The notes beneath the pieces are model-generated. The model had not been told where the DNA came from, searched no databases, and saw only the letters and a program-made list of their open reading frames with translations. The translations under genes and the position numbers were made by a program. A stretch of 64,000 nucleotides of DNA from Arcticibacter pallidicorallinus (GTDB lineage: Bacteria; Bacteroidota; Bacteroidia; Sphingobacteriales; Sphingobacteriaceae): assembly GCF_003002875.1 (NCBI RefSeq), contig NZ_PVTH01000007.1, positions 124,001 through 188,000 of the forward strand. Direction: 5' to 3'. How positions within the stretch are numbered: the first letter of the stretch is position 1; every line of letters begins with the position of its first letter. Shown here piece after piece: positions 1 to 9,697 of this stretch.

Positions 1-686
1 TCTTTGAAATCCTGGTTGTCAATCGAAATGACTGAACCCTGCCAGTTGTAACAGATACCCGCTTCTTCCATCATCGCTAAAGTCATTTCCACATAGGGTC
101 TTGAAGTTAGTTCGCCTTCAATATGAAGCTCTAGGCCTTTCTCGAGGAATGGAGCCACCAACAGTAGGGCAGTGATGTATTGAGAACTTACATTCCCGCG
201 AATGTTGACCTTATTCGTGACTTGCTTAAACTCCTTGCTGAATCTCAGGGGAGGAAAGCCCTCCTGTCCCGCATACTGAATTTTTGCTCCTAGCTGGCCC
301 AGGGCATCAGTCAGTATTCCTATAGGTCGCTGCTTCATTCTTTCTGTGCCGGTAAGCACAGCAGCCGTTCCGGTTACAGAAAGGTACGCTGTTAGAAAAC
401 GCATCGCAGTGCCCGCAGGACCGATATTGGCGGTAAGCTCGCCGTCTGACTGCGTAAGACTTCCGCTTCCAAAAGTGGCGTCATCTTTTCCTGCTTCCAG
501 ATTACGAAGCACACCGTTCAGAATAACCGTATCATCAGCTGAAGAAAGGTTGTTTACTACAACCTTCCCCTTGCTAAGTGCATTCAATATCAGCGCTCTG
601 TTGCTTTCGCTCTTTGATCCGGTAAGCTGGATCGTACAAAAGGTGTCGGCGTTTGACTTTGAAAGAATTAAAGAATTGTCAGACAT
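1..686 (-). CDS. aroA: 3-phosphoshikimate 1-carboxyvinyltransferase (EPSP synthase), N-terminal part
   Basis: The enzyme joins shikimate 3-phosphate and phosphoenolpyruvate to make EPSP, the sixth shikimate-pathway step, in the cytoplasm. I translated about 228 residues before the window edge; the family is usually about 410-430 residues, so roughly the C-terminal 45% is missing. Family motifs seen in order are LTGSKSESNRAL (substrate-binding Lys/Ser/Arg loop), GPAGTAMRFLTAYL, TGTERMKQRPI, GNVSSQYITALL and TSRPYVEMT. The ATG at 684-686 follows the stop of the upstream DAHP synthase gene after a single base, so the two are almost certainly co-transcribed and coupled. It is therefore under the attenuator upstream of pheA. 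Function is seen and family-based; regulation is inferred. Confidence 0.96.
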   Translation of the reverse strand, partial: MSDNSLILSKSNADTFCTIQLTGSKSESNRALILNALSKGKVVVNNLSSADDTVILNGVLRNLEAGKDDATFGSGSLTQSDGELTANIGPAGTAMRFLTAYLSVTGTAAVLTGTERMKQRPIGILTDALGQLGAKIQYAGQEGFPPLRFSKEFKQVTNKVNIRGNVSSQYITALLLVAPFLEKGLELHIEGELTSRPYVEMTLAMMEEAGICYNWQGSVISIDNQDFK

Positions 687-687
687 T

Positions 688-1791
688 TTATTCTACTACT
701 TTTGTCACGTTCATGATTTCTGTCTGCTTCTTGATAGACTCAGCATGGATCAATTCCAACAGTTTAGTAGTGAACTCCGCATCCAGCTTCAATGCTTTAG
801 CAAAATCAGCGCGTTTATTAATAATCTCATCCCAGCGATTCAGCTGAAGGATCGTCATATCGTTATCCCTCTTATGCTCACCAATTTTTTCGACGATGCT
901 CATTCTTTCAGCAATCTTCTGAATAACAAGGTCATCGATCTTGTCGATCTGCTTACGTAGCTCTGCTAGTTTATCAGATACACCTTGGTCTTTAGGCTCA
1001 GGCTGACGAACAGTAAGGTTATCGATCAGATCAGACAAGGCTGCCGGTGTAAGCTGTTGCTTAGCGTCAGTCCATGCTACAGAAGGGTCGATATGCGACT
1101 CGATCATCACACCATTCATTTCCAGGTCAAGTGCTTTCTGAGAAATGTAAGGAATAAGCTCACGGTTTCCGCAGATATGACTTGGATCGCAAATGATAGG
1201 CAATTCCGGACAAAGCGTTTTCAGTTGAATAGAAAGCTCCCACATAGGTTCGTTACGGAAAGCAGACTTTTCGTAAGAAGAAAAACCACGAGAAATTGCA
1301 GCCAGCTTGGTAATACCTGCCTGGTTGATACGCTCAAGTGCTCCGATCCATAAAGAAAGATCAGGGTTAACCGGATTTTTGATCATTACAGGAATGTCTA
1401 CTCCTCGTAGTGCATCAGCAATTTCCTGAACAGTAAAAGGATTAGCAGTAGAACGCGCGCCGATCCATAAAATATCAACTCCTGCAGCAAGTGCTTCTTC
1501 AACGTGCTTTGCGTTTGCAACTTCTACTGTAATCGGTAAACCGGTTTCTCTTTTAGCGCGATTTAACCACTCCAGACCTATGCTTCCGATACCTTCAAAC
1601 TCACCCGGACGAGTACGAGGCTTCCAGATACCCGCACGAAGTGCAGTGATTTTCCCTGTTTTAGCCAGCAAATGAGCTGTAGCAACAAGTTGATCTTCAG
1701 TTTCAGCGCTGCAGGGACCTGCAATCACAAGCGGCTGGTGTTTGACGGGTAACCAGTTTTCTAACGGTTCTATGTTAAAGTTAAGTTTCAT
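688..1791 (-). CDS. Bifunctional 3-deoxy-7-phosphoheptulonate synthase / chorismate mutase
   Basis: A 367-residue fusion. The N-terminal part (about residues 15-265) is a DAHP synthase of the KDO8P-synthase-like type, with AGPCSAE, KPRTRPGEFEG and DPSHICGNR motifs; it condenses PEP and erythrose 4-phosphate as the first step of the shikimate pathway. The C-terminal part (from about 275, LAELRKQIDKIDDLVIQKIAERM) is an AroQ-type helical chorismate mutase. Such fusions are common in Bacteroidota, where the mutase part is thought to feed prephenate formation and to allow feedback control. It lies 34 bases after pheA and 1 base before aroA on the same strand. In this operon it makes both the pathway entry and the branch step to Phe/Tyr. 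Confidence 0.95.
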   Translation of the reverse strand: MKLNFNIEPLENWLPVKHQPLVIAGPCSAETEDQLVATAHLLAKTGKITALRAGIWKPRTRPGEFEGIGSIGLEWLNRAKRETGLPITVEVANAKHVEEALAAGVDILWIGARSTANPFTVQEIADALRGVDIPVMIKNPVNPDLSLWIGALERINQAGITKLAAISRGFSSYEKSAFRNEPMWELSIQLKTLCPELPIICDPSHICGNRELIPYISQKALDLEMNGVMIESHIDPSVAWTDAKQQLTPAALSDLIDNLTVRQPEPKDQGVSDKLAELRKQIDKIDDLVIQKIAERMSIVEKIGEHKRDNDMTILQLNRWDEIINKRADFAKALKLDAEFTTKLLELIHAESIKKQTEIMNVTKVVE

Positions 1792-1825
1792 CGGATTGTT
1801 ATTTGATATGTTGTTGATTTAAATA

Positions 1826-2656
1826 TTAAACGTGGTCATTTTTAAGATATTCGCCCAACAGTGTAAAGTTGATGGTGTATCTCAGCGCTTTGCTAATGGC
1901 TTCGGTGTATTGGGCGTGGTTATCCCATTCAATATCGACGTAGAAATTATACTCATGGCGTTTGCCCAGAACCGGCATTGATTGAATCTTGCTCATGTTC
2001 ACGTTATGCTCAGCGAAGATGTTTAGTACTTTAGCCAGCGAGCCAACCTCGTCGTTCGTTTCAAAAGATAATGAAGCCTTATTTGCGTTCGGCACATCTC
2101 CTTCTTTATGCTCAGTCAGAATCAGAAAGCGGGTATAGTTCTTCTTGTTGGATTCTATTCTGCGTTCCAGGATTTCTAATCCGTATAGTTTGGCAGCAAG
2201 TTGATTGGCAATCGCTACGGTATCCGTCAATTGCTCATCGCGTATCCGCTTGGCGCAGGCTGCAGTATCCGAACTCTCCTTCACGTTCAGGTGCGGATAT
2301 TCGTCAATAAAATCAATGCACTGACGAATAGCGATCGGATGGGATTCCACATTTTTAACCTGCTCAAATTTAACGCCCGGCAAAGCCAGCAGATGCAGCT
2401 GGATGGGAAGATACACTTCGCCAATGATGCAAAGATGATAGTCGCGCAGAAGGGTGTAATTCGGAAGCAGACTCCCTGCAATAGAATTCTCAATGGCCAT
2501 CACCACGTAGTCAGCCTCTTTGTTTTTTAGCGCTTCACAGGTCTTCTTGAATGAGCTGCATTCCACTGTTTCTATATCTTCTCCGAAGAATTTAAAAGCG
2601 GCCTCTTCGTGAAATGAAGCTTTTATACCCTGTATCGCTACTCTTTTCTTTTTCAT
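1826..2656 (-). CDS. pheA: Prephenate dehydratase with C-terminal ACT domain
   Basis: Converts prephenate to phenylpyruvate, the committed step to phenylalanine. The N-terminal catalytic region has VAIQGIKASFHEEAA, ESHPIAIRQC, SSDTAACAKRI and YTRFLIL (the TRF catalytic motif). The C-terminal ACT domain has NKASLSFETNDEVGSLAKVL, close to the GALV/Phe-binding signature, so Phe feedback inhibition is likely. I place the start at the ATG at 2656 (MKKKRVAIQG), because the catalytic domain begins right there. An in-frame ATG at 2698 adds 14 residues that look like leader. It is the first enzyme gene after a Tyr/Phe leader peptide and terminator. No tyrA sits in the visible part of the operon. Confidence 0.95.
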   Translation of the reverse strand: MKKKRVAIQGIKASFHEEAAFKFFGEDIETVECSSFKKTCEALKNKEADYVVMAIENSIAGSLLPNYTLLRDYHLCIIGEVYLPIQLHLLALPGVKFEQVKNVESHPIAIRQCIDFIDEYPHLNVKESSDTAACAKRIRDEQLTDTVAIANQLAAKLYGLEILERRIESNKKNYTRFLILTEHKEGDVPNANKASLSFETNDEVGSLAKVLNIFAEHNVNMSKIQSMPVLGKRHEYNFYVDIEWDNHAQYTEAISKALRYTINFTLLGEYLKNDHV

Positions 2657-2752
2657 TAAAACATAATTTCTTAATGTCAATGAAGCTATCCTGAACATGG
2701 CTACTGCTGTGTTTGAGCAGCATGCTTATGATGGTTTCATGTCAAAAAAAAA

Positions 2753-2773
2753 GTCCCGGCGTTCGGCCGGGAC
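2753..2773 (-). terminator. Rho-independent terminator of the pheA attenuator
   Basis: On the minus strand an 8-bp perfect stem (GTCCCGGC / GCCGGGAC) with a 5-base loop is followed directly by nine U residues (A run at 2744-2752). It sits between a Tyr/Phe leader peptide and pheA rather than after a gene, so it is a regulated terminator. The first arm can instead pair with the segment at 2805-2810. Confidence 0.93.
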
Positions 2774-2804
2774 TTTATATAGTTCTTTATTTCAAAACAT
2801 ATTC

Positions 2805-2810
2805 GTCCCG
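2805..2810 (-). promoter_or_regulatory. Antiterminator segment of the pheA attenuator
   Basis: On the minus strand CGGGAC lies four bases past the leader peptide stop codon. It is perfectly complementary to GUCCCG in the first arm of the terminator, so a 2:3 antiterminator and the 3:4 terminator are mutually exclusive. A ribosome resting on the leader stop would cover it (termination); one stalled on the Tyr/Phe codons would leave it free (read-through). The pairing is seen; the mechanism is inferred from classical attenuators. Confidence 0.8.
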
Positions 2811-2814
2811 TCTC

Positions 2815-2865
2815 TTACTGATAATAGTAAAAGTAACCGAACAGATATGTGTTGTTGTTTTGCAT
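2815..2865 (-). CDS. pheL: Tyr/Phe-rich leader peptide of the pheA operon
   Basis: A 16-codon ORF encoding MQNNNTYLFGYFYYYQ. Seven of 16 residues are aromatic acids made by this pathway: five Tyr and two Phe, with Y-F-Y-Y-Y consecutive near the end. It begins about 17 bases after a TAnnTTTG element and is followed at once by the antiterminator segment and the terminator. It is too short for ordinary gene callers. The role as a translation sensor for charged tRNA-Tyr and tRNA-Phe is inferred from codon content and architecture; the gene symbol is used by analogy with enteric pheL. Confidence 0.88.
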   Translation of the reverse strand: MQNNNTYLFGYFYYYQ

Positions 2866-2881
2866 TTTTGCTTTGTTATTT

Positions 2882-2911
2882 CAAATATACAGTTATAATT
2901 CAAAAGGTCAA
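2882..2911 (-). promoter_or_regulatory. Bacteroidota-type promoter of the pheA operon
   Basis: On the minus strand TTG (2911-2909), exactly 19 bases, then TATATTTG (2889-2882), a perfect match to the Bacteroidota consensus of a -33 TTG and a -7 TAnnTTTG. It lies just after the aroB stop codon, so pheA-aroA can be transcribed independently of aroB. The predicted transcript starts about 10 bases before the leader peptide. Confidence 0.85.
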
Positions 2912-2927
2912 GAGCTAAATGAAAAAA

Positions 2928-3992
2928 TTAGCGACCCAATTCTGCATAATAATTCAGACTCTCAATTATTTGCTCCTTTGTGAGATAGATATTGAAGTCA
3001 CATTTCCCAATTTCGGATGGTAGAGCAAAACCAATCTGGCCATTAACATTCTTCTTGTCGTTTTGCATAAACTCCAGGATGTCGCTATATGAATCTGGTT
3101 TTAGATGATAGTCTGGGAACACAGAACGAATATATTCAGTGATCTCGACCAATTCTTCAGAGGAAAGACCGTTATGACGCGAAGCAAGAAAAGCTTCACA
3201 TATCATTCCAACGGCAATGGCTTCACCATGCAGCAATGCCCGATTGTCATTCTTGAGCGAATAGGTCTCGACAGCATGTCCAATAGTATGGCCAAAGTTC
3301 AATGTCTTGCGTATGCTTTTCTCAAAAGGATCGGTCGTAACGACGAAATTCTTAATCTCTACGGAATGATAGATGGTCTCCTTATCTGTTTTTAAAGGGT
3401 CGATATCTTTCAGCTTGTTGAAATAGTCTCTGTCAGCAATTATTCCATGTTTCACGATTTCCGCAAAGCCGGATATAATCTGTCGGTGCTCAAGTGTTTC
3501 CAGAAATTTAGACGATATAAAGACGGCCTTTGGTTGAGTGAACGTACCAATAATGTTTTTGATATTACCCAGATCGATACCCGTCTTTCCACCAACGGAA
3601 GCGTCTACCTGTGCCAAAAGCGTAGTGGGCACTTGCACGAAATCTATACCCCGTTTAAATGTCGAAGCTGCAAATCCTCCCATGTCAGTAATAACACCTC
3701 CGCCCAGGTTGATAAGTAAGCTGTTGCGGTCGGCACCAAAATCAAGAAGCATTTGCCAAACACCTATGCAGTAATCAATATTTTTATTCTCTTCGCCCGG
3801 GTCAACCTCAATAATATCATAGTGATCAAGGGAAGGGAACAGTTGGCTGATCAAAGGCATGCAATGCTCAGATGTATTCAGATCGGTGAGGAAGAAAACT
3901 TTAGAATAATCAGAGTTGTCGAGGAAATCTTTCAGGTCTTTCAGCTCATCATCAAAGAAAACCTCGTACCCGTTACTTTGTATAGGAGTCAT
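2928..3992 (-). CDS. aroB: 3-dehydroquinate synthase
   Basis: Cyclises DAHP to 3-dehydroquinate, the second shikimate step, using NAD and a divalent metal. At 354 residues it has the usual family length. The nucleotide-binding core reads GGGVITDMGGFAASTFKRG, followed by VPTTLLAQVDASVGGKTGID. The metal-site histidines are in the FAEIVKHG, NFGHTIGHAVE and LLHGEAIAVGM segments. It starts two bases after the S4-domain gene, so the two form one unit. The pheA promoter and attenuator follow its stop, so aroB is probably outside the attenuated transcript unless read-through occurs. Confidence 0.96.
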   Translation of the reverse strand: MTPIQSNGYEVFFDDELKDLKDFLDNSDYSKVFFLTDLNTSEHCMPLISQLFPSLDHYDIIEVDPGEENKNIDYCIGVWQMLLDFGADRNSLLINLGGGVITDMGGFAASTFKRGIDFVQVPTTLLAQVDASVGGKTGIDLGNIKNIIGTFTQPKAVFISSKFLETLEHRQIISGFAEIVKHGIIADRDYFNKLKDIDPLKTDKETIYHSVEIKNFVVTTDPFEKSIRKTLNFGHTIGHAVETYSLKNDNRALLHGEAIAVGMICEAFLASRHNGLSSEELVEITEYIRSVFPDYHLKPDSYSDILEFMQNDKKNVNGQIGFALPSEIGKCDFNIYLTKEQIIESLNYYAELGR

Positions 3993-3994
3993 AT

Positions 3995-4201
3995 TTATTT
4001 CACTAAAATAGTATTGCCGTTAAATTCTACAGTATCACCCCGCTTTACTTTTAAGCGCTTTCTGTAGTCTACAACACCGTTATATTTCACTAGTCCATCT
4101 AAGACAACTATTTGTGCCTCTCCACCTGTCTGGACTACATTGGTTGCTTTGAGTAATTGAATGAGGGGTATAAACTCACCCTCAAGTTCGAATTCTATCA
4201 T
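3995..4201 (-). CDS. Small S4-like RNA-binding protein (YbcJ type)
   Basis: A 68-residue protein consisting of one S4-like fold: IPLIQLLKATNVVQTGGEAQIVVLDGLVKYNG, then RKRLKVKRGDTVEFNG. This resembles the stand-alone S4 proteins of the YbcJ/YaaA group, thought to bind RNA or ribosomes; the exact role is unknown. It is the first gene of a two-gene unit with aroB. A perfect TAACTTTG element lies four bases before the ATG, so the transcript is predicted to be leaderless or nearly so. Confidence 0.85.
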   Translation of the reverse strand: MIEFELEGEFIPLIQLLKATNVVQTGGEAQIVVLDGLVKYNGVVDYRKRLKVKRGDTVEFNGNTILVK

Positions 4202-4205
4202 ATAA

Positions 4206-4213
4206 CAAAGTTA
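4206..4213 (-). promoter_or_regulatory. TAnnTTTG promoter element of the S4-aroB unit
   Basis: TAACTTTG on the minus strand ends four bases before the ATG at 4201. Such elements sit about 7 bases upstream of the transcription start in Bacteroidota, so translation would begin at or next to the mRNA 5' end. Confidence 0.6.
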
Positions 4214-4247
4214 AAAAGATTCTTTTCCCAGTTCCGTTAATAAGCAT

Positions 4248-4255
4248 TAATTTTG
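4248..4255 (+). promoter_or_regulatory. TAnnTTTG promoter element of the proline dehydrogenase gene
   Basis: TAATTTTG ends five bases before the ATG at 4261, again predicting a leaderless transcript. It is the divergent partner of the element at 4206-4213. Confidence 0.55.
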
Positions 4256-4260
4256 ATGCC

Positions 4261-5469
4261 ATGATCACTCCGTCTGATAATTCTTTCAAGACAAACAACG
4301 AAATTCCCGACTTTAGCAATACCCAAATAGCTTTTCAAGGCAAATCAAACAACTTCCTGAACAAATCATACTGGTTGTTTAAAGCGATGAGCAGTCCGGC
4401 TTTAACGAAGGTGGGTATGCGCGTATTGACCTCATTATTGAGTGCGGGTTTGCCGATAATTCCCCTGATCAGGAAGACCATATTCGCGCAGTTTTGCGGG
4501 GGCGAAACCGTCGCAGAATGCGAAGCAACCATCAATAGCCTTGCAAAAAACGGAGTGGGTACTATACTCGATTACTCCGTTGAGGGAGAGCAGCAGGAGA
4601 GAAGTTTCATCGAAACGACCGAGGAAATTCTTAGTGTAATCCGCAAGTCAAAAGACGACAAAAGAATTCCTCTGGCAGTTTTCAAGCCCACGGGCCTTGG
4701 AAGATTCGATCTGTATGCAAAGGTGACGGCAAGGCAGACGCTGACTGTTGCTGAACAGGCCGAGTACTTCAAAGTGAAAGCCCGGTTTAATCAAATCTGT
4801 AAGCTCGCTCATGACATGGAGATGCCGGTCATGATTGATGCAGAAGAATCCTGGATTCAGGGGGCGATCGACGATATAGCGCTCGATATGATGCGCATGT
4901 ATAACCGCGATAAAACCGTTATATACAATACCTACCAGCTTTACCGTTCAGATAAGCTGGCCTCACTGAAGGCCGATATATATCTGGCAGCAACGGATGA
5001 GTTCAACCTGGGTGCTAAGCTGGTGAGAGGTGCATATATGGAGAAAGAGCGTGAAAGGGCAATCGCCAAAGGTTATCCGTCACCAATCCATAAAGACAAA
5101 GCCTCAACCGATGCAGATTTCGATGAAGCTATCCACTTCTGTATGGAGCACGTTACTAACGTATCGTTTGTTTTAGGAACCCACAATGAACAAAGTTGTG
5201 CTTTGCTATGCAGCTTGATGCAAAGTTCGAATATGCAAAGAAATACATCTTCTGTGTATTTCGCGCAACTTCTTGGTATGAGTGACCATCTGAGCAACAA
5301 CCTCGCTCATGGCGGATATAACGTCACCAAATACGTTCCTTATGGTCCTGTAAAAGCAGTTCTGCCCTACCTGTTTCGCAGGGCAGAAGAGAATACCTCA
5401 ATAGCTGGTCAGACAGGACGGGAGCTCAGCCTGATCAGGGCAGAAAAAAAGCGCCGCAAAGTGTCTTAA
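4261..5469 (+). CDS. putA: Proline dehydrogenase
   Basis: A 402-residue FAD-dependent proline dehydrogenase of the monofunctional type, which oxidises proline to pyrroline-5-carboxylate and feeds electrons to quinone. Visible family elements are the beta-barrel strand MPVMIDAEESWIQGAID, KLVRGAYMEKERERA (Arg and Tyr near the FAD/substrate), LGTHNEQS, and the C-terminal YVPYGPVKAVLPYLFRRAEENTS segment that contains the substrate-binding Arg pair. No aldehyde dehydrogenase domain is present, so a separate P5C dehydrogenase is expected elsewhere. Its stop overlaps the stop of the convergent gene at 5466. Only the proline dehydrogenase half of the PutA reaction is implied by the symbol. Confidence 0.93.
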   Translation: MITPSDNSFKTNNEIPDFSNTQIAFQGKSNNFLNKSYWLFKAMSSPALTKVGMRVLTSLLSAGLPIIPLIRKTIFAQFCGGETVAECEATINSLAKNGVGTILDYSVEGEQQERSFIETTEEILSVIRKSKDDKRIPLAVFKPTGLGRFDLYAKVTARQTLTVAEQAEYFKVKARFNQICKLAHDMEMPVMIDAEESWIQGAIDDIALDMMRMYNRDKTVIYNTYQLYRSDKLASLKADIYLAATDEFNLGAKLVRGAYMEKERERAIAKGYPSPIHKDKASTDADFDEAIHFCMEHVTNVSFVLGTHNEQSCALLCSLMQSSNMQRNTSSVYFAQLLGMSDHLSNNLAHGGYNVTKYVPYGPVKAVLPYLFRRAEENTSIAGQTGRELSLIRAEKKRRKVS

Positions 5470-5771
5470 CCGGGCGTGTTTAATTTCTTTAACAGCTCCT
5501 CCGAAAGGTCATCCGAGTAAACGCCATAGCCGTTTACAAACACGCCCTTCACATGGTATTTTTCAGATTCAATTCCATAAACGATGGAATTGTCAGCCGG
5601 GTCAGTAGGGCCTTCAAAGCGATGGAATTCAGAAATGCTGAAATCATCGGGACTTAAAGTTATATTATGTTCGCTATTGTGGAGCACGCCGTTTGCAAGG
5701 TTAAAGTCCAGGGTGAAACCTCGTTTTTTCAAGTCGTTGAGCGCATCGACCATAGTTTGATAGTTTTCCAT
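5466..5771 (-). CDS. Small conserved protein of unknown function
   Basis: A 101-residue soluble protein starting MENYQTMVDALNDLKKRG. It is rich in acidic and aromatic residues, with no signal peptide or membrane segment. Proteins of this size and start occur widely in Sphingobacteriales, and I recall them sometimes being labelled phosphoribosylpyrophosphate synthetase; nothing here supports that (no PRPP loop, far too short). A conserved-looking segment is FHRFEGPTDPADNSIVYGIES. It converges with proline dehydrogenase, with the two stop codons overlapping. The function is unknown. Confidence 0.8.
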   Translation of the reverse strand: MENYQTMVDALNDLKKRGFTLDFNLANGVLHNSEHNITLSPDDFSISEFHRFEGPTDPADNSIVYGIESEKYHVKGVFVNGYGVYSDDLSEELLKKLNTPG

Positions 5772-5802
5772 AGTCGTTTAACATTCACGAATTGCGTTTT
5801 GT

Positions 5803-6441
5803 TTAAGGTTTTAAGAGCCCTGACCGGTAAAGGAATTTCTCCAGTGAATCGTCGGCTGTCATCAGGTGGGTGTTAAGACCTAGTTCTTTGGCTGTCCTGA
5901 GGTGCTGCGGACTATCATCAATGAATAGCGTCTCCTCAATTTTAAGGTCGTTTTCATCTAAAACCAGCTGAAAGATCTCTTTATTAGGTTTTCTGATTTT
6001 AACGAGGTGAGAGTAGTAGATCTTCTCAAAAAACTGATCGTTAGAGTCTAACTGATACTCCTTATTCAAATATTTATGAATAAAGTCCAGATGAATTTCA
6101 TTGATATTGCTTAGCAGGAAAGTACGATATTGACTTTTCGCTTTTAAAAGAAGCTCATGGTTAACAGGGGGGACGCCGATTAGCAGGCTGGTCCAGGCCT
6201 TGTCGATTTGCTCATCCGAAAGATTCGGTTGACCGGTGATATCTCTGATCCCATTTCTGAATTCGGCTGCTGAAATACTGCCGGTTTCGAACTGGTCAAA
6301 TAACGAATGATGCCCTGCATGCGCGAAGAATGTCTCCACATTATGGATACCCAATTCAGTAAATGAGTTTTGTGTTTTCAGGAAGTCAATGAGAAAGATG
6401 ACGTTACCATAATCGAAGATAATATTTTTGATGTTTTGCAT
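5803..6441 (-). CDS. HAD-family hydrolase (YihX/GS-1 type phosphatase)
   Basis: From the ATG at 6441 this is a 212-residue HAD phosphatase. Motif I is altered: IIFDYGNVIFLID has the first Asp but reads DYGNV, as in the YihX-like HAD group acting on sugar phosphates. Motif II is TFLLSNIN, the motif III lysine is in KIRKPNKEIFQ, and motif IV is LFIDDSPQHLRTAKELG. An upstream in-frame ATG at 6489 would overlap the promoter region, so I prefer 6441. It stands alone, divergent from the tRNA gene. The substrate is unknown. Confidence 0.9.
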   Translation of the reverse strand: MQNIKNIIFDYGNVIFLIDFLKTQNSFTELGIHNVETFFAHAGHHSLFDQFETGSISAAEFRNGIRDITGQPNLSDEQIDKAWTSLLIGVPPVNHELLLKAKSQYRTFLLSNINEIHLDFIHKYLNKEYQLDSNDQFFEKIYYSHLVKIRKPNKEIFQLVLDENDLKIEETLFIDDSPQHLRTAKELGLNTHLMTADDSLEKFLYRSGLLKP

Positions 6442-6449
6442 GTCTATAC

Positions 6450-6480
6450 TTGAGATTTTAAATGCAAAAATGTACATTTG
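6450..6480 (+). promoter_or_regulatory. Promoter of the tRNA gene, overlapping a divergent promoter
   Basis: TTG (6450-6452), 20 bases, then TACATTTG (6473-6480), a perfect -7 element 29 bases before the tRNA. On the other strand TACATTTT (6474-6467) could be the -7 element of the HAD gene. The two elements overlap by two bases. Confidence 0.6.
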
Positions 6481-6508
6481 CCATCGCAAACAGAAAAGTT
6501 TGTTAACC

Positions 6509-6582
6509 GCGCCTATAGCTCAGTCGGTTAGAGTAGAAGACTCATAATCTTTTGGTCCCTGGTTCGAGCCCAGGTGGGCGCA
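6509..6582 (+). tRNA. tRNA with CAT anticodon (probably elongator tRNA-Met)
   Basis: A 74-base cloverleaf. The acceptor stem is GCGCCTA / TGGGCGC with one G-T pair and discriminator A. The D arm is GCTC...GAGT, the anticodon arm GAAGA-CTCATAA-TCTTT, and the T arm CCTGG-TTCGAGC-CCAGG. The 3' CCA is not encoded. The anticodon CAT could belong to elongator Met, initiator Met or lysidine-modified Ile2. The paired first acceptor base argues against the initiator. Met versus Ile2 cannot be settled from the sequence alone. Confidence 0.93.
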
Positions 6583-6590
6583 CAGCTTAA

Positions 6591-6617
6591 AAGCTTCCTT
6601 TTCTGGAAGCTTTTTTT
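6591..6617 (+). terminator. Terminator after the tRNA gene
   Basis: An AAGCTTCC / GGAAGCTT stem with a 6-base loop followed by a run of T, nine bases after the tRNA 3' end. Confidence 0.88.
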
Positions 6618-6621
6618 GCTT

Positions 6622-6705
6622 CTATCCCTTAACGAACTTCTCATGATCGATCATCGTCTCCAGGTGCAGAGCTTTGTATTGTTCGATAAGGTCATTGATG
6701 TCCAT
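6622..6705 (-). pseudogene. Possible remnant of a Fic-like gene start
   Basis: A 27-codon reading frame beginning MDINDLIEQYKAL and ending HEKF plus four codons. The start resembles, from memory, the N-termini of Bacteroidota Fic-domain proteins, which continue from a similar HDKF-type sequence into the rest of the protein. Here the frame stops at once and the tRNA terminator follows. The rest of 6720-7150 shows no convincing reading frame on either strand. The identity is a guess; a random short ORF is possible. Confidence 0.3.
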
Positions 6706-7201
6706 GATAGTCCGAAGGATTAGCATTATTCGGTGCAACTAAACTCAGCCCTTCCACAGCGTTTACAGGTCATTTTGCGAGTTGTCTCCGATATGGTGAC
6801 CAATATTATCTATAGGCAGACCTACAGTTGTCTGACCTATATGGTGTGTTGAACGAAGAAAAAATAACCACCTGCCAGCCGCGAATCAGCAGCGTACCGG
6901 GTTCGGCTTTTTGTCGTGTTTTATCGAAGCAGGTACGACGTTGGTACGTATTTGGTTCGACTCTGACAGGGAGCAGAATAGACTTGGTAAAACCTGATAA
7001 GTACTTTGGGGTACAGGTTGCTGCTCTATCCCAATCAATAGCCTCCTGCCGTCATCCTACTTAAATAAAGAAATCATTTTTTAAGTATATTGTACTACCA
7101 ATCCATAATAGTAGGTCGTTCAATGGAATTAATTATCAATTAAGCACATGAACAACCTAGAACATTAGGTTGGTTAATGTTTTGGTATCAAGCCTCCTAA
7201 A
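6706..7201. other. Gene-poor region upstream of the sensor kinase
   Basis: No supported gene. A 78-codon frame at 6828-7064 (+) has no family features and unusual composition. Near the 3' end an inverted repeat CAACCTA-N6-TAGGTTG (7153-7172) lies 29 bases before the kinase start and may be an operator. The rest is AT-rich and unassigned. Confidence 0.6.
7153..7172. promoter_or_regulatory. Inverted repeat upstream of the kinase gene
   Basis: Perfect 7-base arms CAACCTA and TAGGTTG separated by 6 bases, 29 bases before the ATG at 7202. It has the size of a dimeric repressor operator. There is no regulator gene next to it. Confidence 0.4.
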
Positions 7202-9697
7202 ATGAGTGGTAATTCAACCTATAACGCAGATTTACTTAGAAACACTATTGACAGCTCTTTAGACATGATTCAAGTGTTTGAAGCTGTGCGAAATGAACAG
7301 GATGAAATCATTGACTTCATATGGATCCTCAATAATAAAGCTTCTGAGAAAGTATATGGCGACGTCATTGGTAAAAGCCTTTTAACCTTAAACCCGGGCG
7401 TAGTAGAGGAAGGCATTTTCGATACGTTTAAAAACGTAGTTGAGACTGGGGAGCCTGATCAGAGCATCAGGCATTATGTTCATGAACAATTTGACGGATG
7501 GTTCCAGCAATCTGCGGTGAAGCTGGAAGATGGCGTGGCAACCACGACGAGGAACATCACTGAACAGAAAATGGCAGAACAGAGGATCAGCGAACAGGCC
7601 CATTTTGTCCGGTCCTTGACAGACACTGTGCCAGCCGTTGTGATGCTTACCGAACATCCTTCCAACGAGATTGCTTTCGCCACCCGCAATATAAGGGAAG
7701 TGCTGGATTTTGATGCAGACGATGGGATGGAAATGGGGCACTCAGGAAGATTGAAATTGGTTCACCCGGACGATACCGCGAAAGTAAACGCTTATTACAG
7801 TCGGTTTGATCAGATCTCTGATCTGGAAGAAAACCGAGGGAGCTTCAGGATAAAAAAGAAGCATGGAGATTGGGTCTGGGTCGATGTTCGCGGACGGGTT
7901 TTCAAACGGGATGAAGACGGGAAAGTGATTCAAACTCTTCACGTGGTCTTCGACGATTCCGAAAATCAAAAGGCTGCCGAAGAATTAGAGCAAAGCAAAG
8001 AACTTTTACAGCGTGTAATCGACGCTCCCAATATTGGTGTCGCCGTTTGCAAGGCAGTTCGCGACGAAGAGGGACGTATTTATGATTTTGTCCACGAGTT
8101 TATCAATCGGATTACAAGGGAGACTTCGGGTGAGGATTTTACCGGAGAGTTACTGAGCCGTCGTGGAGAGGCCGGAATGTCGCAAATAGGGAAATTCATC
8201 GAAACCATTGAATCCGGACAGCAGAACGACTACGTTATTCATGGTGAGTTTAACGGCAAGCTGAACTGGGTTTCCTTCTCCAATACTTCATTGGGCGACG
8301 ACCGACTGGTGCATACCTGGCAAGATATTACGCAGCTCAAGCAGGCCGAACAGGAAAGCATTGAAAGCAGAAGCTTGCTTCAGACTGTGTTCGACGTAAC
8401 GCTTAATCCTATTGCCTATCACAAAGCCGTTCGTGATGAACAGGGGAAGATAATTGACTTTACTTTCCAATTGGAGAATCGAGAAGCGCGGAAGTACGCT
8501 ATGGAAGACCGGGCCGGCCAGCTGTATTCCGAAGCACACCCTGGCATCAAAGAAACGCATGTTTTTAAATTGTACTGCGAGGTAGCCGATTCAGGAGAGC
8601 CACTCAATACGGAGGTTCAATTGAGTTTACAAGGTAGCGAGCGCTGGTTTCATATCATGGCCGCTAAATTGGAAGATGGACTTGTAGCTACCGCTGTTGA
8701 CATTACTGAACGCAAAAAGTCAGAGCAGGAAATTATTCGGTTGAATGCCGAAATCGCCAAAAAGGCGACAGAGGAATACCGGCTGTTTCGCGATGCTACT
8801 AGTGAACGACAAAGCTTTTTGCTCGGCTTAAGTGACGCACTACGTCCGCTGTCTGATCCTGTACATATTGAAAGTGAAGCCACACGCCTACTACGCGAGA
8901 AATTAAATGCAGGGTGGTGCTACTATAACCAATTTGGAGATGACCAAGTCACATCAACCGGTTTGCGCGATGCTACAAGAGAGGGTCTTCCCCCCTTGAC
9001 GGGTGTTCATGATCTTAGCGACGTTCCGCTGTTCCTTAATCACATGAAGGAAGGAAGGGTGATGAATGAGCCTGATCTTAATCAATGCAACTTGTTAAAT
9101 CCTTGTTTTGTTGAGGCCTGCTTTAAACTGGGGATGCTGTCGGCATTGGCAGTGCCCATCGTAAACGCCGGGCGACTGTTTGGCGTATTCCTTGTCGCAG
9201 ATACGCATAAACGCTATTGGACGGATGAAGAGGTTACACTGGTGAAAGAAGTGGCCGAACGTACCAGGGTGGCAGTCGAAAGGGCGAAGGCAGAAGATGC
9301 GTTGCGGAGAAGTGAAGAGAAATTCCGCAAGATCTTTGAGAATATTGATCAGGGCTTCTCCATACATGAGCTTGTTATCGATGAAAGCGGCAATGTTACT
9401 GATGTGATTTTACAGGAAGTAAATGAGGCGTTTGCACAATATACCGGAATACAGGATGCGCAGGGTAAAAAGGTAAGTGAAATTGTCCCTAATCTTGAAC
9501 CTGTTTGGCTGAATGCGATGACCCGTGCTTATAAATATGGCGAAACGCAATTTTTTGAAGGATACAATTCCGATACAGATCGCTGGCTTACTTCGCAATA
9601 TTCCCGTATTGGAGGAGATGGAAGCCGGCTTTTATCTACTGTTTTTAGCGACATCACTGAGCGCAAAAAAGGGAACAACAACAGGAGTTCCTGCTGA
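7202..9697 (+). CDS. Multi-PAS/GAF sensor protein, front half of a frame-split histidine kinase
   Basis: 831 residues, soluble, with no signal peptide or membrane span, so a cytoplasmic sensor. Domains in order, approximately: PAS 10-125, PAS 127-257 (HGDWVWVDVRGRVFKRD, a PAC-type strand), PAS 265-378, PAS 385-500, a coiled linker, GAF 535-690, PAS 700-825. PAS modules are separated by the usual DITERK-type linkers. It has no kinase core. It ends abruptly in the last linker after ITERKK with out-of-frame residues and TGA. The next frame (-1) continues this linker as EQQQEFLLKLSEVL, exactly as expected for an uninterrupted protein. I therefore read this as the 5' part of one gene of about 1,787 codons. 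Confidence 0.88.
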   Translation: MSGNSTYNADLLRNTIDSSLDMIQVFEAVRNEQDEIIDFIWILNNKASEKVYGDVIGKSLLTLNPGVVEEGIFDTFKNVVETGEPDQSIRHYVHEQFDGWFQQSAVKLEDGVATTTRNITEQKMAEQRISEQAHFVRSLTDTVPAVVMLTEHPSNEIAFATRNIREVLDFDADDGMEMGHSGRLKLVHPDDTAKVNAYYSRFDQISDLEENRGSFRIKKKHGDWVWVDVRGRVFKRDEDGKVIQTLHVVFDDSENQKAAEELEQSKELLQRVIDAPNIGVAVCKAVRDEEGRIYDFVHEFINRITRETSGEDFTGELLSRRGEAGMSQIGKFIETIESGQQNDYVIHGEFNGKLNWVSFSNTSLGDDRLVHTWQDITQLKQAEQESIESRSLLQTVFDVTLNPIAYHKAVRDEQGKIIDFTFQLENREARKYAMEDRAGQLYSEAHPGIKETHVFKLYCEVADSGEPLNTEVQLSLQGSERWFHIMAAKLEDGLVATAVDITERKKSEQEIIRLNAEIAKKATEEYRLFRDATSERQSFLLGLSDALRPLSDPVHIESEATRLLREKLNAGWCYYNQFGDDQVTSTGLRDATREGLPPLTGVHDLSDVPLFLNHMKEGRVMNEPDLNQCNLLNPCFVEACFKLGMLSALAVPIVNAGRLFGVFLVADTHKRYWTDEEVTLVKEVAERTRVAVERAKAEDALRRSEEKFRKIFENIDQGFSIHELVIDESGNVTDVILQEVNEAFAQYTGIQDAQGKKVSEIVPNLEPVWLNAMTRAYKYGETQFFEGYNSDTDRWLTSQYSRIGGDGSRLLSTVFSDITERKKGNNNRSSC

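Follow-up and report, generated by a model that had tools for sequence, protein, structure and literature searches.

The pheA operon of Arcticibacter pallidicorallinus is preceded by an element that, judging from its sequence and that of its relatives, is with high probability a ribosome-mediated transcription attenuator of the leader-peptide type. It very probably senses Tyr and Phe in this genome, and Trp too in about half of the family (Sphingobacteriaceae). The element lies on the minus strand of the window, that is, the whole stretch of 64,000 nucleotides that was analysed (contig NZ_PVTH01000007.1, positions 124,001 to 188,000). The original prediction had read the site as a classical ribosome-mediated attenuator, and this reading is now supported by the anatomy of the site, its conservation, its mutually exclusive pairings and its spacing. 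Leader-peptide attenuation thus read has comparative support across a whole family and much of a Bacteroidota class, and the sensor of a single leader would combine two or three aromatic amino acids. In a phylum whose promoters and start signals are unusual, such elements offer a natural test of how transcription is coupled to translation, and the Rfam release searched has no model for their family.

The site and its operon

Attenuators are recognised in sequence by a short leader open reading frame (ORF) rich in the amino acids of the operon and by an intrinsic terminator before the first structural gene, and both are present here. The features, from the upstream gene to the last gene of the operon within the window, are as follows:

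2928-3992, minus strand: aroB, immediately upstream of the promoter-leader stretch
2909..2911, minus strand: TTG, the -33 element of a Bacteroidota-type promoter, read from the sequence
2882..2889, minus strand: TATATTTG, the -7 element (consensus TAnnTTTG), after a 19-nt spacer following TTG
2815..2865, minus strand: leader ORF MQNNNTYLFGYFYYYQ-stop, 16 codons, of which seven are aromatic (five Tyr and two Phe)
2845..2850, minus strand: segment 1, ACATAT (Thr-Tyr codons), which pairs with 2797-2802 in the minimum-energy fold
2805..2810, minus strand: segment 2, CGGGAC, the antiterminator strand, 4 nt (GAGA) past the leader stop
2797..2802, minus strand: ATATGT, the partner of segment 1 in a putative protector helix (1:2), just downstream of CGGGAC
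2766..2776, minus strand: segment 3, AAAGTCCCGGC, the first terminator arm, with segment 2 or segment 4 as alternative partners
2750..2760, minus strand: segment 4, GCCGGGACTTT, the second terminator arm, which pairs with segment 3
2744..2752, minus strand: U run of the terminator, nine U, read from the sequence
1826..2656, minus strand: pheA, prephenate dehydratase (Pfam PDT PF00800, 192 bits, above the cut-off)
688..1791, minus strand: DAHP synthase-chorismate mutase fusion (best NCBIfam matches span both domains, below their cut-offs)
3..686, minus strand: aroA (EPSP synthase), running off the window start; identified by eye and from the original prediction

All of the sequence elements that had been predicted (promoter, leader, CGGGAC and terminator) were found again at these positions, and the claimed complementarity between CGGGAC and the first terminator arm holds at six of six bases. 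The terminator hairpin, AAAGTCCCGGC-CGAAC-GCCGGGACTTT (2776-2750), is GC-rich and has 11 pairs, including three A-U pairs, around an 8-pair core. It is one of two 11-pair sites among the 11 terminator-like sites at positions 1-8000 (7.5 in shuffles), and it has the most G-C pairs, seven. The fold of 2879-2741 reaches -41.5 kcal/mol (z -5.9), which none of 200 shuffles equalled. The 2:3 helix in the window is weaker than in most relatives, with six pairs and an A instead of the usual C at the next position. Leader ORFs with at least seven aromatic residues per 10 codons arose in 16 of 20,000 Markov shuffles of the 220 nt around the site, and those with at least six in 175 of 20,000; a single window can therefore mislead, and the weight of the argument was placed on relatives.

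The pheA gene, whose best NCBIfam match is also prephenate dehydratase (below the cut-off of the model), probably starts at 2656, which is Met15 of an ORF open from 2698; this start is favoured because the matches in relatives mostly set in at residues 12-19. Besides the enzyme for the first step of the aromatic pathway, the operon encodes chorismate mutase, prephenate dehydratase and EPSP synthase, a set of products that serves Tyr as well as Phe. The gene order is stable: among the 77 family loci in the named set (the best 80 of 113 pheA-matching contigs), the DAHP synthase-chorismate mutase fusion follows pheA in 77 and aroA lies downstream in 76. A sample taken at the level of the order consisted of one family only, and its 21 new loci (L188-L208) were used in the gene-order count alone.

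The sole prephenate dehydrogenase match is a divergent 452-codon ORF outside the operon (own genome G000:C10:18088-18396; L262:706-2064, minus strand), a tyrA candidate with a PF02153 score of 27.3 bits in the genome search and 24.5 bits as a protein, below the cut-off. By eye, we take it to resemble the fungal TYR1 type. A phenylalanine hydroxylase as the Tyr source, which would explain joint Tyr/Phe control, was rejected, as PF00351 has no match in the A. pallidicorallinus genome.

Conservation of leader and pairing in the family

Of 121 genomes sampled from the family, 107 had a match to the pheA protein, the window's own genome among them, and up to 500 nt before each match were taken as the upstream region. 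The full arrangement was defined by an automatic rule in three parts: an ORF 8-40 codons long in which a stretch of 10 residues includes at least five F/Y/W; an intrinsic terminator starting at most 170 nt after the ORF start; and a segment, located past the last clustered aromatic codon, whose pairing with the first terminator arm scores at least 13. By this rule, the full arrangement is present in 104 of the 107 family genomes and in none of 340 Markov-shuffled upstream regions. Two of the other three have leader and terminator with weaker pairing (11.5), which brings these two parts to 106 of 107 upstream regions; the last one (L151) fails because its hairpin breaks the rule, and its leader, segment and hairpin are visible by eye. 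The original prediction had called for an alignment of the pheA 5' regions of relatives and had named unconserved leader codons or pairing as the outcome that would speak against it. Both proved to be kept across the family, with compensatory changes in the 2:3 and the 3:4 helices.

The named set, in which the nearest loci belong to Arcticibacter, followed by Pedobacter, Mucilaginibacter, Daejeonella and others, satisfies the rule in 76 of its 80 loci. The four misses are L087, which stands at a contig edge with segment 2 and the terminator visible, and L108-L110, whose records are titled Prolixibacteraceae, uncultured Bacteroidia and Tangfeifania. As the named and the sampled sets overlap, their 187 loci comprise 166 distinct upstream regions, of which 159 were parsed; the first parser missed or misread L065, L087, L108-L110, L138 and L151, and the second (the rule) recovered L065 and L138. 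One record titled as a Legionellaceae bacterium MAG (L039) carries a Sphingobacteriaceae-like pheA operon with the attenuator on its contig, so that its title or binning is probably wrong.

The putative promoter is shared as well. TAnnTTTG, stated as the -7 consensus in a passage of PMC9723704, occurs 5-70 nt before the leader start in 130 of the 159 family upstream regions, versus 4.7% of base-shuffled stretches; in relatives with this motif, the spacing to a preceding TTG is 19 nt in 92 cases and 20 nt in 21. These observations bear on the strongest of the alternatives, in which the leader ORF has no role and the hairpin simply terminates aroB transcripts or acts as a constitutive promoter-proximal terminator. 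Since aroB lies just upstream on the same strand, its transcripts would indeed run into the hairpin. However, a promoter is located between aroB and the leader, and an aroB match is lacking in 22 of the 75 named family loci whose upstream sequence exceeds 2.5 kb (within the best 80 of 113). The full arrangement is nevertheless found in 76 of the 77 named family loci (again within the best 80 of 113), the exception being L087 at its contig edge. Moreover, a terminator serving aroB would not conserve leader codons or segment 2. With the arrangement kept where the aroB match is missing, an aroB terminator was judged unlikely, and we give this alternative as a whole very little credence compared with the attenuator.

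The 159 parsed leaders comprise 88 distinct nine-codon cores, which encode 56 distinct nine-residue peptides. Each core holds 6-8 aromatic residues, a density that is partly due to construction, as the cores were picked to end at the aromatic cluster. In the other two frames there are 0-4 aromatic residues, with stops in 122 of 159 in one frame and none in the other. Codon usage in the cores varies for each residue (TTT 229, TTC 71, TAC 186, TAT 135 and TGG 44). Codons vary and Y, F and W interchange while the block stays aromatic, as is expected if the content decoded by the ribosome is under selection. The predicted Tyr/Phe control fits the presence of both Tyr and Phe in all 56 distinct core peptides. 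The theme is not restricted to these two amino acids, since Trp is found in 24 of the 56 core peptides and in 78 of the 159 parsed leaders (a few of which were parsed from a start codon further upstream).

Shared leader endings such as KSRD (65 of 159), together with the aromatic core, could also be taken to mean that the leader peptide itself is functional, as a small protein with a YFYYFSKSRD-like tail. The tail, however, is what segment 2 encodes: segment 2 begins within the leader codons in 140 of the 159 upstream regions, and this is why leaders ending in KSRD are common. Where segment 2 changes, the peptide is altered while the pairing stays (KLG, SQD and SRG tails), and 19 of 159 leaders, those of the window's clade and of a few others, lack the tail, as their stop precedes segment 2 by 1-5 nt. 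The interchange of Y, F and W likewise argues against a fixed peptide. We regard a functional peptide as highly improbable, even more so than a terminator of aroB.

For the attenuator, the pairings can be followed in an alignment of 103 family sequences, drawn from 149 distinct upstream pieces after 46 had been dropped by length or 93% similarity. In the 2:3 antiterminator helix, 93.1% of the cells are paired and both sides have changed in six of nine pairs. Its covariation is 0.144, versus 0.116 in shuffles (0 of 500 as high; the shuffles ignore common descent). Both-side changes were as high in 10 of 500 shuffles, and further pair types, as high in 69 of 500, are not unusual. In the 3:4 terminator helix, 97.2% of the cells are paired, both sides have changed in eight of 10 pairs, and covariation is 0.258 versus 0.129 in shuffles, which likewise ignore common descent and were never as high (0 of 500). 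Controls in which the strands were slid gave 18-57% (2:3) and 24-61% (3:4) paired.

An alignment-free comparison gave a consistent result: segment 2 scores 21.75 against the terminator arm of its own genome and 20.04 (sd 0.13) against the arms of other genomes, an advantage that none of 2000 permutations matched (common descent ignored), and shuffled segments score 10.1. Examples of pairs in the family are CTGGG/CCCAG, CCAGGAC/GTCCTGG and CGGGGC/GCCCCG. Elsewhere in the class, the letters have changed thoroughly (AGGCGGGA/TCCCGCCT, AAGCGGGA/TCCCGCTT and ACGGGAGG/CCTCCCGT). The predicted antiterminator pairing, which would exclude the terminator, is by these comparisons conserved with compensatory changes. 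RNAalifold, applied to the whole alignment, predicts the terminator helix alone, as is expected because the two structures are mutually exclusive.

The 1:2 helix (ACATAT/ATATGT) is paired in 87.4% of the cells in the 103 relatives and is mostly invariant, with weak covariation (6 of 500 shuffles as high). Its own-genome pairing was reached by 2 of 2000 permutations when segment 2 was included, and by 35 of 2000 for the part downstream of segment 2 (common descent again ignored).

Proposed mechanism

From the order and spacing of these parts, we infer the following for the start of transcription, ribosome stalling, termination and the sensed amino acids. RNA polymerase would initiate near 2877, and a ribosome would trail it on the leader ORF. 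With ample Tyr-tRNA and Phe-tRNA, the ribosome would reach the end of the leader and cover segment 2 (CGGGAC), leaving segment 3 to pair with segment 4, and transcription would stop at the U run (2744). If either tRNA were undercharged, the ribosome would stall at the aromatic codons and segment 2 would be exposed. Free segment 2 would then pair with segment 3, no terminator would form, and pheA, the DAHP synthase-chorismate mutase gene and aroA would be transcribed.

The geometry was examined in a footprint model, in which the nascent RNA was folded with an assumed ribosome mask that reached 18 nt upstream and 12 nt downstream of the first base in the A-site codon. With this 12-nt footprint, all six 2:3 pairs form for A-site codons 3-15, which include all seven aromatic codons; three pairs form at codon 16 and none at the stop. 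When the footprint is widened to 15 nt, six aromatic codons leave all six 2:3 pairs, and at 17-18 nt five do so, so that under wider assumed footprints control would not extend to the last one or two Tyr codons. A ribosome at the stop leaves zero 2:3 pairs under all of the footprints tried (12, 15, 17 and 18 nt). In relatives, segment 2 follows the last clustered aromatic codon at a distance of 6-15 nt in the 159 upstream regions, and of 7-11 nt in 149 of them. In the model, the spacing fits a stall at the control codons that would free segment 2 and a stop position that would cover it.

A leader ORF could alternatively control the translation of pheA, by translational attenuation or reinitiation, and leave transcription alone. 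The distance between leader and pheA is short in some relatives (e.g., L170), and a passage of PMC4833913 proposes reinitiation at leaders for several phyla, including Bacteroidetes. Against this, the intrinsic terminator and its U run (3:4 helix) are conserved, and in the window the leader stop stands about 158 nt from the probable pheA start; control of translation in place of transcription seems to us about as improbable as a functional peptide. A T-box or riboswitch was set aside, there being no Rfam match to one either in the whole window at gathering level, where the single match is a tRNA, or in 2640-2930 at E up to 10.

Distribution, known systems and other leaders

The class was sampled in 197 genomes, of which 58 had a pheA match. 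Seven of these are within the family, and from the other 51 two partial matches (G329 and G235) were dropped. By the rule, 25 of the remaining 49 have the full arrangement, three have leader and terminator, one is weak and 20 show nothing. Seven of these 20 belong to one family (f12), and the rule overlooked an existing arrangement in at least three of the 20: this was read by eye in L232, and in L253 and L256 a match to R1, a covariance model built on the family element, stands directly before pheA. In two others of the 20, L237 and L244 (genomes G300 and G328), an aromatic leader with its terminator precedes a DAHP synthase gene, and pheA follows about 3.5 kb further down on the same strand; in G571, too, such a leader precedes a DAHP synthase gene (the leader loci of these three class members are L296, L299 and L286).

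At the level of the phylum, 105 of 296 genomes have R1 matches at E 0.01, and many of these matches are weak. We consider it probable that the element is an old, class-wide all-aromatic attenuator of Bacteroidia, in which a single leader responds to Tyr and Phe, and to Trp as well in about half of the family, and so gates entry to the whole aromatic pathway; the element would belong to a wider set of Trp, Thr/Ile and His leaders of the phylum. If this class-wide reading is true, Bacteroidota couple the trailing ribosome to RNA polymerase tightly enough for classical attenuation.

PF00800 had a match in 43 of 148 sampled class genomes (at least 95% completeness requested) versus 14 of 14 control genomes, and a recognisable pheA may be absent from many Bacteroidia.

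Among known systems, pheL-pheA of E. coli (NC_000913.3) is alike in its aromatic leader, its U run and the prephenate dehydratase gene that comes next, and, by eye, in a segment just past the stop with complementarity to the first terminator arm. R1 recovers it at the expected position (29.2 bits, E 0.0011 over 15.8 kb), a likeness that need not mean common descent. In contrast to the leader in the window, pheL has Phe codons only and no Tyr or Trp; in E. coli, prephenate dehydratase is fused to chorismate mutase, and pheA is followed by tyrA on the opposite strand where the window has a DAHP synthase gene. The best Rfam match of the window stretch is Phe_leader (RF01859), covered over the whole model at 27.3 bits (E 0.011). 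As this is far below the gathering threshold of 55, the element is not a member of RF01859 by the rule of Rfam, although it seems to work alike. The same logic, for other amino acids, is known from Thr_leader (RF00506) and the classical thr, trp and his attenuators.

In the phylum itself, passages of a 2021 report on Flavobacterium psychrophilum (PMC9723704) give strong clues for leader-peptide attenuation before amino acid operons and describe a structured 5' element at pheA that is common to other Flavobacteriaceae; they also state that translation start signals in Bacteroidota differ from Shine-Dalgarno. Compared by phylum and gene name, the F. psychrophilum element, which is described there with neither leader sequence, codons nor pairing, is likely identical to that of the window. 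The notability claimed for leader-peptide control in this phylum is accordingly lowered, since those passages had already reported attenuation clues and a conserved pheA 5' element. Among the open-access literature matches listed, there was no description of a Tyr/Phe(/Trp) leader for a pheA operon in Bacteroidota. In the matching passages of other papers, short ORFs reminiscent of leader peptides are mentioned for Bacteroides (PMC7366714), a 'pheA' motif is listed, but for Actinobacteria (PMC2864571), and no conserved RNA structures were found for Phe or Tyr operons of Actinobacteria (PMC1262725). A passage of a 2010 paper described leader-peptide systems as known from Proteobacteria and Actinobacteria only, before its own case in Firmicutes (PMC2965389).

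In the A. pallidicorallinus genome, R1 has one strong site, the pheA leader itself (115 bits); the other 28 matches score at most 40.1 bits, and no second aromatic attenuator was recognised among them, four of the 28 having been inspected. One of these four, of 34.6 bits, stands before trpE. A Trp-rich leader, MLNNKYTQNWWWHESVHRSVVCL, with a terminator hairpin is found directly before this gene (own genome G000:C3 near 309937-310144; L312:1298-1429) and is likely, from its sequence, a trp attenuator. That trpE has its own WWW leader may be why the pheA leader needs no Trp. A Thr/Ile-rich leader, MNILIYTIFITTTTITLIWPGGRSVMV, followed by a hairpin with a broken U run (L308:2383-2538, minus strand), precedes a gene that is thrA-like by eye, where Thr_leader of Rfam matches with 29.5 bits, below the gathering threshold of 55; in two relatives (L301 and L302), a leader starting MIFNTSIITTIIITTG stands before a thrA-like gene. 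The trpE and thrA-like leaders, each with a hairpin after it, also speak for an attenuator at pheA. A His-rich leader, MSISFTYHHHFHHRLAAI, with no obvious intrinsic terminator by eye, precedes hisG (L263:1363-1419), and in another family of the phylum (L303) a His-containing leader and a terminator stand before a hisG-like gene.
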